A stretch of DNA of 64,000 nt. Origin: Bifidobacterium bifidum ATCC 29521 = JCM 1255 = DSM 20456. Lineage in GTDB: Bacteria > Actinomycetota > Actinomycetes > Actinomycetales > Bifidobacteriaceae. A program made the position numbers and the translations under genes. This document shows positions 53,134 through 55,801 of the stretch, piece after piece. Location: NCBI RefSeq assembly GCF_001025135.1, contig NZ_AP012323.1, positions 1,612,001 through 1,676,000 of the forward strand, in the 5' to 3' direction. Within the stretch, counting starts at the first letter, position 1. Each line of letters opens with the position of its first letter. The notes under the pieces are model-generated. The model had not been told where the DNA came from. It saw only the letters and a program-made list of their open reading frames with translations, and made no database searches.

Positions 53134-53832
53134 TCATGAGACGGCGTTCATGTACTCCTTCAGGGATTCGCCGATGCCGCCGGACTCGCCAGACGACTTC
53201 AACGCGGTGACGTGCCCGTCGGTATCGACGCCAAGCACTCCGGAGATTGGGTTGATGGCATTGTAGACGACGTCATATTCGTTGAGTAGCAGCAGGAACT
53301 CGGCGGTGCCACTCGCCTTCGCCTCGTTCAGCAGCGTGGTTGACGTCTCGCGTCGAACGATGCCGCTCTTGTCGACGCCGCCCACCTGCGCGACCTCAAT
53401 GATGTCGCCGACTTTCGCGTCGCCCTTGATGACTTTGGTGACACGCACCCGGGTGACGGTCTCCGGCACGCCCAGCGCGTCCATGTCGATGTCGTCCTCC
53501 GTCAGCCCGTATTGCGGGTTCGTTTCAGGCGTTCCGGACGTGAAATCGATCTCGGGATACAGGATGCGCTCGCGCGAGTCGAGCGGGACACCGGTGACCA
53601 CCAGACCGGCGGCCTTGACGCCCTCTTCGGCGGAAGAGTAGCCGGGATAGTCGGCGGTGATGGACTCGGCGGTCTTCGCCGTGGTCTCTGTCGCGGTCTT
53701 CGCCGTATTCTGCGTCGAGTGGCCAGCGGTCGGAGAGCCGACGGAATGCATATGCACGGCGACACCTACCACCAGCGCCGCAACGAGCGCCACGACGGCG
53801 AGCGTGCCCTTGATGACGTTTGACTGCTTCAT
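53134..53832 (-). CDS. Membrane-anchored or secreted protein of unknown function
   Basis: A 232-residue protein with an N-terminal signal-anchor (KQSNVIKGTLAVVALVAALVVGVAVHMHS, residues 2-30), no lipobox, then a Thr/Ala-rich spacer (about 35-58) and a soluble domain. The domain has a beta-rich pattern (TRVRVTKVIKGDAKVGDIIEVAQVGGVDKSG, AEFLLLLNEYDVVYNAINPISGVLGVDTDGHV) reminiscent of small OB-like extracellular domains in Gram-positives, but I do not recognise the family. Single gene, preceded by the low-GC island on its 5' side. GAGGAG lies before the ATG. Confidence 0.75.
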   Translation of the reverse strand: MKQSNVIKGTLAVVALVAALVVGVAVHMHSVGSPTAGHSTQNTAKTATETTAKTAESITADYPGYSSAEEGVKAAGLVVTGVPLDSRERILYPEIDFTSGTPETNPQYGLTEDDIDMDALGVPETVTRVRVTKVIKGDAKVGDIIEVAQVGGVDKSGIVRRETSTTLLNEAKASGTAEFLLLLNEYDVVYNAINPISGVLGVDTDGHVTALKSSGESGGIGESLKEYMNAVS

Positions 53833-54060
53833 CAGTAACAGCTCCTCACGTAACTCATGTCATATGCCTGAGGCATACGGATATATCTTTCAATCACAGT
53901 TCAGCAACGGTATTCATCAGCGGCCAGACCGGTCGGCTGATTGATCCGTCGATTATTTTTTTCATATCAGTCTCCGATGTCCAGCATGCAGTGAATCCGC
54001 GCCAACTTCGCCGTTGACAGAGCATTGAGTAAAGAACAGCTGTTTTTTCGTATAAAAATA

Positions 54061-54090
54061 AGAGAAACGCTGTAAATTCAACGTTTCTCT
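54061..54090 (-). terminator. AT-rich terminator in the low-GC island
   Basis: Stem AGAGAAACG/CGTTTCTCT (9 bp, perfect) with a 12 nt loop; on the minus strand it is followed by TATTTTTAT. It could end the GrpB-family transcript or a lost mobile-element gene. Confidence 0.75.
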
Positions 54091-54103
54091 CACTTTTCAT
54101 CAA

Positions 54104-54125
54104 TGCCGCAGACCGGAATCGAACC
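54104..54125 (-). other. tRNA 3'-end fragment (possible attachment-site scar)
   Basis: On the minus strand 22 bp read as a T-loop and acceptor end (GGTTCGATTCCGG, then TCTGCGGCA), with no D- or anticodon arm. Such partial tRNA 3' ends mark the far junction of elements integrated by tyrosine recombinases. The matching complete tRNA is not in this window, and no integrase is present. Confidence 0.6.
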
Positions 54126-54231
54126 GTTTTACTTAATCTCAAATACTGATAGAAAGGGGCTTTGAAGACTTCATCACGGTTGCGGTGTTCAAAAAGTGTT
54201 CAAACGTTTGTTGCATACAAACTGAAATTTG

Positions 54232-54744
54232 TCATATCCCTATTTCTGAGTAGATTTTTTCGACAAACGGTGACTTATGTTCGATATATTTCTCAATATC
54301 AAATGGATAGAGCGCAGCGCCTTCTTCTTTAATTCTACTGTATTCACGCACAGCTTCCGGATGAGAACGCAAATATTCACGGAAAGCAATACGCCTTTTC
54401 AGTTCCTCAGAATCTCGCGGGCATACATATAGATGATGCTTCCGCAAATGGGTTTTGCCTTCATATTTAAATGCTTCCCGTCCGGCAATACCAAGGTTTC
54501 CTTCATGGTGATAGTCGATTCTTTCTAAGGCAGAGATTACAGCGTCAAGCATGGAGTAATCTTTAATGACGACATCAATATCAATAATCGGTTTCGCTGA
54601 TAAACCATGCACTGAAGTGCTGCCAACATGTTCTATCGCAAGAGCCAGTTGATCAAGAGCTTCCTGAATTTCACTCTTGATTTCACAAAAATCCCGCGCC
54701 CAGTGTTTATCATAAGGTAGCACAACAACATGCTTTGTAATCAT
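54232..54744 (-). CDS. GrpB-family (UPF0157) nucleotidyltransferase-like protein, low-GC
   Basis: A 170-residue GrpB/UPF0157 protein. The family core is AIEHVGSTSVHGLSAKPIIDIDVVI (about residues 36-60), with an aspartate pair resembling the nucleotidyltransferase fold, then LGIAGREAFKYEGKTHLRKHHLYVCPRDS near 85-113 and RIAFREYLRSHPEAVREYSRIKE. Cellular role unknown. GGAGG lies 8 bp before ATG 54744. The GC content is far below that of all neighbours and AT-ending codons are frequent, so it was probably acquired from a low-GC Firmicute. It is flanked by repeats (GTGTTCAAA) and a tRNA-end scar. Confidence 0.88.
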   Translation of the reverse strand: MITKHVVVLPYDKHWARDFCEIKSEIQEALDQLALAIEHVGSTSVHGLSAKPIIDIDVVIKDYSMLDAVISALERIDYHHEGNLGIAGREAFKYEGKTHLRKHHLYVCPRDSEELKRRIAFREYLRSHPEAVREYSRIKEEGAALYPFDIEKYIEHKSPFVEKIYSEIGI

Positions 54745-54921
54745 TCTCTTTACCTCCACAAATCCCGATTTGTCTGTTTCACAATGTCAATAAGAGGAAG
54801 AATAACAGGCTTGCTTTTCAGAATCTCGGTATTTCATCATAAAGTGTTCAAAGGTGTTCAAACATTTTATATAAAAAACAGCTATGACCAAGGTAAGTAT
54901 TTTCAAAGGCCGACATCGGCA

Positions 54922-54927
54922 TATACT
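54922..54927 (+). promoter_or_regulatory. -10 box for a probable leaderless transcript
   Basis: TATACT lies 7 nt before the mutarotase ATG, which would place the transcription start at or within a base of the A of the start codon. No Shine-Dalgarno sequence is present. Confidence 0.55.
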
Positions 54928-54934
54928 GTGATCT

Positions 54935-55801
54935 ATGATTACTACGTTTACTATTCGCAACGTCGCCAATGAAGACGGTGCCGCGCAGATCAGCGATTTC
55001 GGCGCTCACGTGCTCTCCTGGACGCCCGCGGGCGGCCATCCCGCCGTATGGCAGCCCAAGGCCGTCTATCTGGGCAAACCGATCCGCGGAGGCGTGCCCG
55101 TGGTACTGCCATGGTTCGCACTCGGTTTCGAGCATGGCGAAATCGCCGGTAAGAAGCCGAAGCACGGGTTCGCCCGCACCACTGTCTGGCATGTGGACGA
55201 GGACGCGACCGACGACCGACGCATCCGATACACGCTGTCCGACGCCGACGCGACGCCCGAACTGCTCGCCCAGCTGCATTCCGGGGCCTCCCCGCGGTTC
55301 CATGCGGTCTACGACATCGAAGTCGGCAAGGAGCTGACCATGACGCTGACCATCACCAACGACGGTACCGAGCCGCTGCGCTATGAGACCGCGCTGCACA
55401 CGCACTTCCATGTCGGCGACCTGACCCAGGTGAGCCTACACGGATTGGAGGGCTCCGACTATCTCGACGCCACGGTCGCCGGGTACCCTCCCCGCGTGCA
55501 GCCCGATGAGCCGGTGACCTTCGACGGCACCACGGTCGACCGCATCTACTACTCCACCGACACGTTGCGTCTGGATGACCCGGCATGGGATCGCGTCATC
55601 GTCATCGAGGCCCATGGCACGAAGCAGACCGTCACATGGAACCCGGGAACCGCGGCCGACACCGAAATCGGCGACATGCAGCCCGGCGAATGGCGCGATT
55701 TCGTAGCCATCGAGGCAGCCGCCTGCCGCGAGTATGCCATCGAGCTCGCTCCCGGCGAATCGCACGCGCTCACGCAGCGCATCAGCGTCGAGAACCGCTG
55801 A
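54935..55801 (+). CDS. D-hexose-6-phosphate mutarotase (aldose 1-epimerase family, YeaD-like)
   Basis: Interconverts anomers of glucose-6-phosphate-like sugars. 288 residues, all-beta fold. The RGGVPVVLPWFALG motif near 52-65 and KHGFARTTVWHV near 75-86 (catalytic His region) are characteristic of hexose-6-phosphate mutarotases. ALHTHFHVGDL near 150 holds the second His, and WNPG near 238 with the final Glu region GEWRDFVAIEAA follows. In bifidobacteria it would smooth flux into the fructose-6-phosphate shunt. It has no ribosome site and appears leaderless. Just downstream of the low-GC GrpB island. Confidence 0.92.
   Translation: MITTFTIRNVANEDGAAQISDFGAHVLSWTPAGGHPAVWQPKAVYLGKPIRGGVPVVLPWFALGFEHGEIAGKKPKHGFARTTVWHVDEDATDDRRIRYTLSDADATPELLAQLHSGASPRFHAVYDIEVGKELTMTLTITNDGTEPLRYETALHTHFHVGDLTQVSLHGLEGSDYLDATVAGYPPRVQPDEPVTFDGTTVDRIYYSTDTLRLDDPAWDRVIVIEAHGTKQTVTWNPGTAADTEIGDMQPGEWRDFVAIEAAACREYAIELAPGESHALTQRISVENR

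Follow-up and report, generated by a model that had tools for sequence, protein, structure and literature searches.

Introduction

Integrative and mobilizable elements are a class of mobile elements that has been reviewed in the literature. Among them, IME_Rho_tet carries tet genes and a relaxase, is bounded by terminal inverted repeats and is often found in MAFF2-type genes, with partial copies in Actinomycetota (PMC12904643). A second system that bears comparison with the present locus is that of the Treponema integrons, in which gene cassettes are associated with attC sites (PMC3607928).

Here we analyse a low-GC island within 64,000 nucleotides of Bifidobacterium bifidum DNA (the whole of this stretch, numbered from its first letter, is referred to as the window). 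Sequence comparison identifies the island as what is left of a small clostridial integrative element.

Results

Composition, limits and site of the island

The best AT-rich segment of the whole 64-kb window maps to positions 53810-54955, with a score of 127.1 against 28.5 for the runner-up. The GC content is 0.389 over 54031-54934 and 0.409 in the grpB gene, compared with 0.58-0.69 in the adjoining 500-base segments. A sequence-only reading of this DNA had described an island of low GC content at 53950-54930, with one GrpB-family gene and an AT-rich terminator. The low GC and the single GrpB-family gene are fully supported by our data (Table 1); the island does lie in that range, which is slightly wide for the inserted unit. 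As for the terminator, a hairpin with a T-rich minus-strand tail is present, although the automatic terminator scan flagged none. The runner-up AT-rich segment lies elsewhere in the window, at 2159-2732.

The inserted unit is flanked by an 8-bp direct repeat, TATAAAAA, at 54051-54058 and 54870-54877, and by two hairpin arms standing 824 nt apart. The 20-mer AGCTGTTTTTTCGTATAAAA at the left arm has a single match in the genome with up to 3 mismatches. No tRNA gene was found at the island site, and an Rfam search of the island with E values up to 1 gave four weak matches, far under the gathering scores, which we took as chance.

The neighbours of the site are CMAS, an epimerase and a beta-lactamase-like gene. 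The same neighbours are found in G042, the nearest species by flank DNA, where neither the island nor the gene at 53134-53832 lies between CMAS and the epimerase; the alignment of its intergenic DNA to the site was no better than shuffles, the epimerase start excepted. The gene at 53134-53832 has no Pfam match and has relatives in G042 (63% amino acid identity) and G039 (46%). Since, in the stretches compared, these relatives stand away from the CMAS and epimerase neighbours, this gene may also be a newcomer at the site.

Table 1. Features of the island and of its edges (positions in the window)
Feature	Position	Strand	Remarks
Interrupted host hairpin, left arm AGCTGTTTTTT	54038-54048		11 nt, 100% complementary to right arm
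Inserted unit, putative circularly permuted, deleted integrative element	54051-54869		819 bp, with the 8-bp repeat included once
Terminator-like hairpin of the element's right (tRNA-side) end, beyond the core	54062-54089	-	T-rich minus-strand tail follows
Attachment core, 3' end of clostridial tRNA-Leu(UAA)	54104-54125	-	22 bp; complete tRNA-Leu(taa) in L097, L146-L150, L153
Element left end (core and repeat pair)	54104-54230	-	97-98% over 123-126 bp to L146, L147, L148, L151, L152, L155
Left-end repeat pair GTGTTCAAA-AA-GTGTTCAAA	54185-54204	+	Same pair at native left ends
Cassette arm after grpB, AAATTTCAGTTTG	54218-54230	-	1 mismatch to AAATTCCNGTTTG; overlaps left-end edge
grpB cargo gene	54232-54744	-	170 aa; PF04229, 169.5 bits against a cut-off of 25.5
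Cassette arm before grpB, ACAAATCGG-GATTTGT	54758-54773	-	Exact match; recurs before unrelated genes
Cargo-slot leader remnant GTGAAACAGACAAATCGG	54765-54782	-	Final 15 nt the same as at the slot edge of L146, L147, MT839696
Integrase stub	54783-54842	+	Last 19 codons and stop; 18/19 residues as in native integrase
Right-end repeat pair GTGTTCAAA-G-GTGTTCAAA	54844-54862	+	Same pair about 63 bp from intact tRNA-Leu, L146-L149
Interrupted host hairpin, right arm AAAAAACAGCT	54873-54883		Perfect inverted repeat of left arm

Element ends and integrase stub match small clostridial elements

A 141-bp query (54102-54242) was searched against 397 genomes of one clostridial family, that of Eubacterium uniforme, which we take to be the Lachnospiraceae. 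Matches were obtained in 75 of them, most covering 22-25 bp of tRNA alone; longer ones, of 100-141 bp at 86-98% identity, occurred at nine places in seven genomes, and an eighth genome matched over 74 bp at 82%. The stretches compared below come from these eight genomes, one further genome and one viral record.

Specifically, in L146-L149 a complete tRNA-Leu(taa) is followed, about 63 bp further on, by a repeat pair identical to the right pair of the island, and, at a distance of 4.6-5.6 kb from the first core, there is a left end that includes the 22-bp core. All four elements encode a 418-aa tyrosine integrase, together with regulators and variable cargo. A Rep protein of 284 aa is intact in L147 and L149 and is represented by a shorter frame in L146, and L148 has other genes; one integrase and one Rep from these parent elements were assigned by Pfam to PF00589 and PF23343, respectively. 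In addition, L146 contains a second unit in tandem, of 1.2 kb and with a broken integrase. In L150 and L153 the tRNA-Leu is present and the right repeat pair absent; the left ends in L151 and L152 have neither tRNA-Leu nor right pair within the stretch examined.

The left-end repeat pair, with small changes in some cases, is present in L146-L152, L154 and L155 and not in L153 or L156, and probably represents the arm sites of the integrase. A search of the window for a GTGTTCAAA pair with a 3-nt spacer gave 0 matches, the actual spacers measuring 2 and 1 nt. The repeats that had been reported on both sides of the gene do exist as one pair on the left and one on the right, but they are the element's own end repeats and not a flanking duplication. 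The proposal of an integrated element that lost its integrase agrees with what we found: the complete integrase gene is absent from the island, and its last 19-21 codons remain. A search with the whole integrase independently met this stub (54777-54839, 86% over residues 398-418). Among 297 genomes of the order, part of the genus included, 50 had some integrase match, the best one apart from the stub being 38% over 66 aa, so that no close copy was met there. The Rep gene is absent as well, grpB being the sole sizeable gene from the integrase stub to the left end.

The 22-bp tRNA 3' end lacking the remaining tRNA, also part of the sequence-only reading, is present as described, and no tRNA gene accompanies it; its interpretation as the scar of a local host tRNA did not hold. 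When the genome was searched for a complete tRNA with this end, no other copy of the 22-mer was found with up to 3 mismatches, and a host tRNA was rejected as the source of the scar. The 22-mer was met in four viral contigs, and in L097 it forms the 3' end of a complete tRNA-Leu(taa). Being single-copy in its own genome and ending a complete tRNA in L097, the tRNA end is that of the donors' tRNA-Leu(UAA), carried inside the element. As there is no tRNA at the site and the core is unique in the genome, the island is a relic rather than an active member of the tRNA-Leu(UAA) elements.

No donor element carrying this grpB was found among the 397 genomes probed with the left end, and a query made of the left end and grpB revealed, in 391 genomes, neither a donor element nor a left end beyond the tRNA part. 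In the open-access literature we found no published name for the small clostridial tRNA-Leu(UAA) elements and, by title or abstract start, no paper on the element or on the arms described below, most subscription journals lying outside this coverage; when the same literature was queried by sequence letters, all of the matches listed were unrelated by title.

Two matching records labelled 'Bacteriophage sp.', both unverified and unannotated, were considered for a phage origin. It was rejected, since MT839696.1 (L206) is part of the tRNA-Leu element and MT836171.1 (L100) part of an ICE-like scaffold. In the viral contigs, 3 stretches fit the integrase pattern and none encodes a relative; pattern searches for the right-end repeats, the leader and the array each gave 0 matches. 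One viral contig (L114, 2471-2494) has a 24-bp exact match to the left-end repeat pair, in an intergenic position with unrelated genes around it.

Ancestry and predicted function of GrpB

The gene on the island is the only GrpB match in its genome, and in the genus GrpB occurs in 12 of 112 genomes, its own included. Ten of the other eleven are 25-37% identical to it in alignments of 136-170 aa, and the eleventh, a broken copy, reaches 45% over 51 aa; G042 has no GrpB at all. The check that had been suggested, a search for the best homologues outside Actinomycetota, led to Clostridia: the closest relatives outside the genus are clostridial, at 78% amino acid identity (among the best 80 of at least 492 confirmed stretches), in a search by single sequence, which recovers close relatives only.

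A tree was built from 53 rows, made up of half of the clostridial rows together with some additional ones. Eight GrpBs of the genus group in a single clade (100/100) at the end of a long branch, and two further ones have very long branches near the root. The island GrpB is placed among the clostridial rows, apparently nearest to L016 (fork support 85/30). Descent within the genus was rejected on account of the low identities and of the separate clade, and the island GrpB is, judging from its relatives, foreign. A second, distant GrpB-family gene was noticed near a left end in another clostridial genome (L154, 3364-3717).

The predicted GrpB model has a pLDDT of 95. Its fold matches PDB entries 2nrk (Z 20.8) and 6n39 (Z 18.1), a GrpB and the C-terminal part of a dephospho-CoA kinase, and, weakly, CdnE of the CD-NTases (Z 8.6). 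Residues G41, S42, T43, D55 and D57 are invariant in 20 sequences; we take them to be the G-S-T...D-x-D residues of the nucleotidyltransferase motif. The fold makes nucleotidyl transfer a likely predicted activity of the protein. A promoter scan of the island found 4 candidates, against 2.4 +/- 1.7 in shuffles, and 0 before grpB on its strand. With the upstream region of the slot deleted and no clear promoter before it, the expression of grpB may be low or absent.

A cargo slot with fixed edges

One upstream region (99-100% identical over 80 nt) is common to L146, L147 and MT839696 as far as AAACAGACAAATCGG, where three different cargos begin. In the island, the last 15 nt of this slot edge are followed by grpB. 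Cargos are also found in other settings: the SF0329 and membrane genes are common to L147 and MT836171 (97% over 993 bp, from the motif to the record end), and the NTF2-like gene of MT839696 occurs on a Vescimonas plasmid as well (99% over the 112 nt available, from the motif). L148-L150 have other cargo and lack this leader, and a 125-aa gene is present both in L149 and on the Vescimonas plasmid (90% over 415 bp). Several native elements have a similar sequence at the place of the after-gene arm AAATTTCAGTTTG. The cargo slot in which grpB sits thus has fixed edges, and it lies between short palindromic arms that are also found around unrelated single genes.

Distribution of the cassette arms

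The arms were counted in 167 loci (1.12 Mb), genus and order loci left out. ACAAATCGGNATTTGT (1 mismatch) had 23 distinct matches, 16 of them directly before a start codon (reversed control 0), and AAATTCCNGTTTG had 42, with 20 directly after a stop (reversed control 5, 0 after a stop); as the loci were partly picked by their match to GrpB or its leader, these counts are not an unbiased census. The after-gene arm AAATTCCNGTTTG followed the stop in 12 of 79 clostridial GrpB genes, compared with 0.35 expected, six of the 12 coming from a rabbit-gut cluster. The before-gene arm, linked to a ribosome-binding site, had 6 matches in 4 of 80 GrpB loci and 0 in one shuffle, and an arm with up to 3 mismatches lay near the gene in 19 of the 80, a count without control. 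Two-part sites numbered 20 (13 distinct, several poor) in 1.41 Mb, and 0 in one shuffle.

Clostridial GrpB loci were also compared in pairs, covering 0.4-4 kb per side. Among 54 pairs of at least 85% identity, 36 (17 loci) had the gene and its edges alone in common at E 1e-5, the homology extending by a median of 28 nt upstream of the start codon and 7 nt downstream of the stop codon; since 28 of these 36 are among eight rabbit-gut loci, the pairs are not independent. The other 18 pairs have other or longer DNA in common and are not counted among the 36. Of the 17 gene-only loci, some (L023, L068, L071, L079) have no clear arms.

Two Campylobacter plasmids, L228 and L230, are 98.8% (488 bp) and 99.6% (236 bp) identical on the two sides of a site at which one GNAT gene is present or absent. 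The GNAT gene lies upstream of an ANT(6) gene, its position coinciding exactly with ACAAATCGG-AATTTG, and the site is doubled. On Campylobacter plasmids the before-gene arm also precedes an ANT(6)-type aminoglycoside gene. Single genes with precise edges are therefore seen in the slot, in the plasmids and in the GrpB pairs. Rows of arm-bounded genes occur in L018 and L240. In L240 (G952:C19, 14615-16356), at a contig end, three small genes follow one another, each behind an arm; the two-arm sites measure about 61 nt, with a constant 33-nt spacer in three of them, and the row resembles an integron-like array. Single-strand folding of five cassette sites gave z values from -0.5 to -3.9, mostly unremarkable, and in an Rfam search of five loci with cassette sites tRNAs alone reached the gathering score. 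Inspected by eye, AAATTCCNGTTTG and ACAAATCGGNATTTGT are not obviously attC AAC/GTT triplets. All together, grpB resembles an exchangeable cassette; such cassettes would also move between other gut bacteria.

The order of the element appears permuted

In the native order, the core is directly followed, on the tRNA side, by element DNA with a hairpin ending in CTCTTATTTTT. In the island, that CTCTTATTTTT-type hairpin sequence lies beyond the core, outside the left end, so that the left and right element ends meet at the tRNA core, which is joined end-to-end. Over the 54 nt past the core, the island agrees at 46-48 positions with five native right ends (score 38-42) and at 7-45 positions with the outer flanks of eight left ends (score at most 33.5); as terminator-like sequence also lies past the core outside several donor left ends (43-45 of 54 in five of the eight), the permuted reading rests on a modest score difference and on two rejoined junctions. 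Once rejoined, the island ends agree with five native right ends in 85-88 of the 94 positions compared. The rejoined flanks read AGCTGTTTTTT-CGTAT-AAAAAACAGCT, a perfect 11-bp hairpin; none of 20000 mononucleotide shuffles of the 60-nt flanks reached it, and five reached 10 bp.

The element ends, the core, the integrase stub, the foreign gene and the slot edge are thus documented by alignment, and the permuted order rests on the junction and right-end fits.

Discussion

The data presented above are compatible with the following scenario. The source would have been a small clostridial element with a tyrosine integrase, Rep, a regulator and one cargo slot, whose native target is the 3' end of tRNA-Leu(UAA), and whose slot grpB may have entered as a gene cassette bounded by palindromic arms. 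A deletion would have removed the DNA from about integrase codon 399 to the slot leader, and a circle would have formed in which left and right ends were joined at the tRNA core. The circle may have entered the chromosome through one crossover within the 8-bp TATAAAAA, common to the circle and to the host hairpin, the crossover point in the circle lying just outside the right-end repeats; we infer this order of deletion and insertion. The outcome would be a permuted, immobile 819-bp relic with grpB as its sole intact gene, and the empty site expected from a permuted single crossover is CAGCTGTTTTTTCGTATAAAAAACAGCT. An intact hairpin, and with it an empty site, was not seen in any of the 112 genomes of the genus when up to 3 mismatches were allowed. 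The target does not resemble the core, so that the integrase is unlikely to have made the insertion. Taken as a whole, this account of a clostridial tRNA-Leu element that was deleted, circularised and entered by an 8-bp crossover appears to us quite probable.

A linear fragment of donor chromosome, acquired for example by transformation and inserted by two illegitimate joins, with the piece past the core being the donor's tRNA-Leu terminator, would agree with the similar hairpin in the outer flanks of the left ends in L148-L152 and with the tandem units in one donor-type genome (L146). It is nonetheless improbable, as the five native right ends fit that piece better, the breaks at the two ends of the island fall on the homologous point of the unit and show the same 8 bp, and the rejoined host DNA is a perfect hairpin; a shared breakpoint together with a restored hairpin makes two independent joins hardly likely. 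Far less credible still is a small transposon with terminal inverted repeats AGCTGTTTTTT, inserted by a transposase: it would explain the 11-nt perfect inverted repeat at the island edges, but the 20-nt end has no second genomic copy within 3 mismatches, the native element ends compared have no AGCTGTTTTTT-like sequence, and no target duplication was seen outside the repeat. A variant of the permuted-circle account, and not exclusive of it, is that the full element inserted first and that later deletions in this host reduced it to grpB. A plain internal deletion is indicated by the integrase stub and the slot leader, against which it can be noted that the donor type, too, has a short unit whose integrase is broken (the second unit of L146); we consider this variant a real possibility, somewhat short of an even chance.

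A broader and tentative proposal, which we would not yet favour over its negation, is an undescribed integron-like cassette system in gut Clostridia. Genes lying between AAATTCCNGTTTG after the stop and ACAAATCGG-NATTTGT before the start would move singly between genomes, plasmids and ICEs, and the small tRNA-Leu elements, with their promoter-like region and slot, would act as capture platforms from which cassettes reach even distant hosts, this grpB being an example. The same hairpin-directed recombination could also underlie the permuted insertion of the island within a host hairpin. The arms may instead be conserved leader and tail expression signals of many clostridial genes, moved by ordinary homologous or short-homology recombination. 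In many cases the before-gene arm overlaps the ribosome-binding region, no recombinase is linked to the palindromic arms, the folding of the five sites is mostly unremarkable, and most gene-only pairs come from eight rabbit-gut loci. Such signals do not readily account for a gene that is present or absent exactly at a doubled site in L228 and L230, for the 36 of 54 grpB pairs with gene and edges alone in common, or for identical upstream DNA behind which three cargos begin at the same base, and this second explanation is likewise conceivable at rather less than even probability.

The island documents DNA transfer from Clostridia to a distant host without the element's normal target, and shows that remains of this kind can be resolved to the single base. 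The cargo slot and the arms point to a mobile pool of gene cassettes in gut Clostridia. If a recombinase were found, the spread of single accessory gut genes without visible transposons, a long-standing question, would become testable.

Compared with known systems, the island shares with integrative and mobilizable elements such as IME_Rho_tet a pattern of Bacillota elements with broken copies in Actinomycetota. IME_Rho_tet differs in its tet genes and relaxase, and the word 'tRNA' is absent from the main text of its report (PMC12904643). With integron cassettes, as known from Treponema (PMC3607928), the arm-bounded genes have in common single genes, imperfect palindromes, rows and capture behind a promoter-like region; integron attC sites have R''/R' AAC and GTT triplets, which are not obvious in the arms found here, AAATTCCNGTTTG and ACAAATCGGNATTTGT. 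The gene itself has the sequence and fold of the GrpB / UPF0157 family (PF04229), and here it stands alone on a mobile relic. The closest likeness is to the clostridial tRNA-Leu(UAA) elements (L146, L147 and L149, with integrase PF00589, Rep PF23343 and XRE), with which the island has the left end, right repeats, core and integrase C-terminus in common, as well as the cargo slot seen in L146, L147 and MT839696. Unlike them, it lacks the integrase body and Rep, its order appears permuted and its site is not a tRNA; and, while the parent elements reside in Clostridia, the host of the island belongs to another group, of another phylum.
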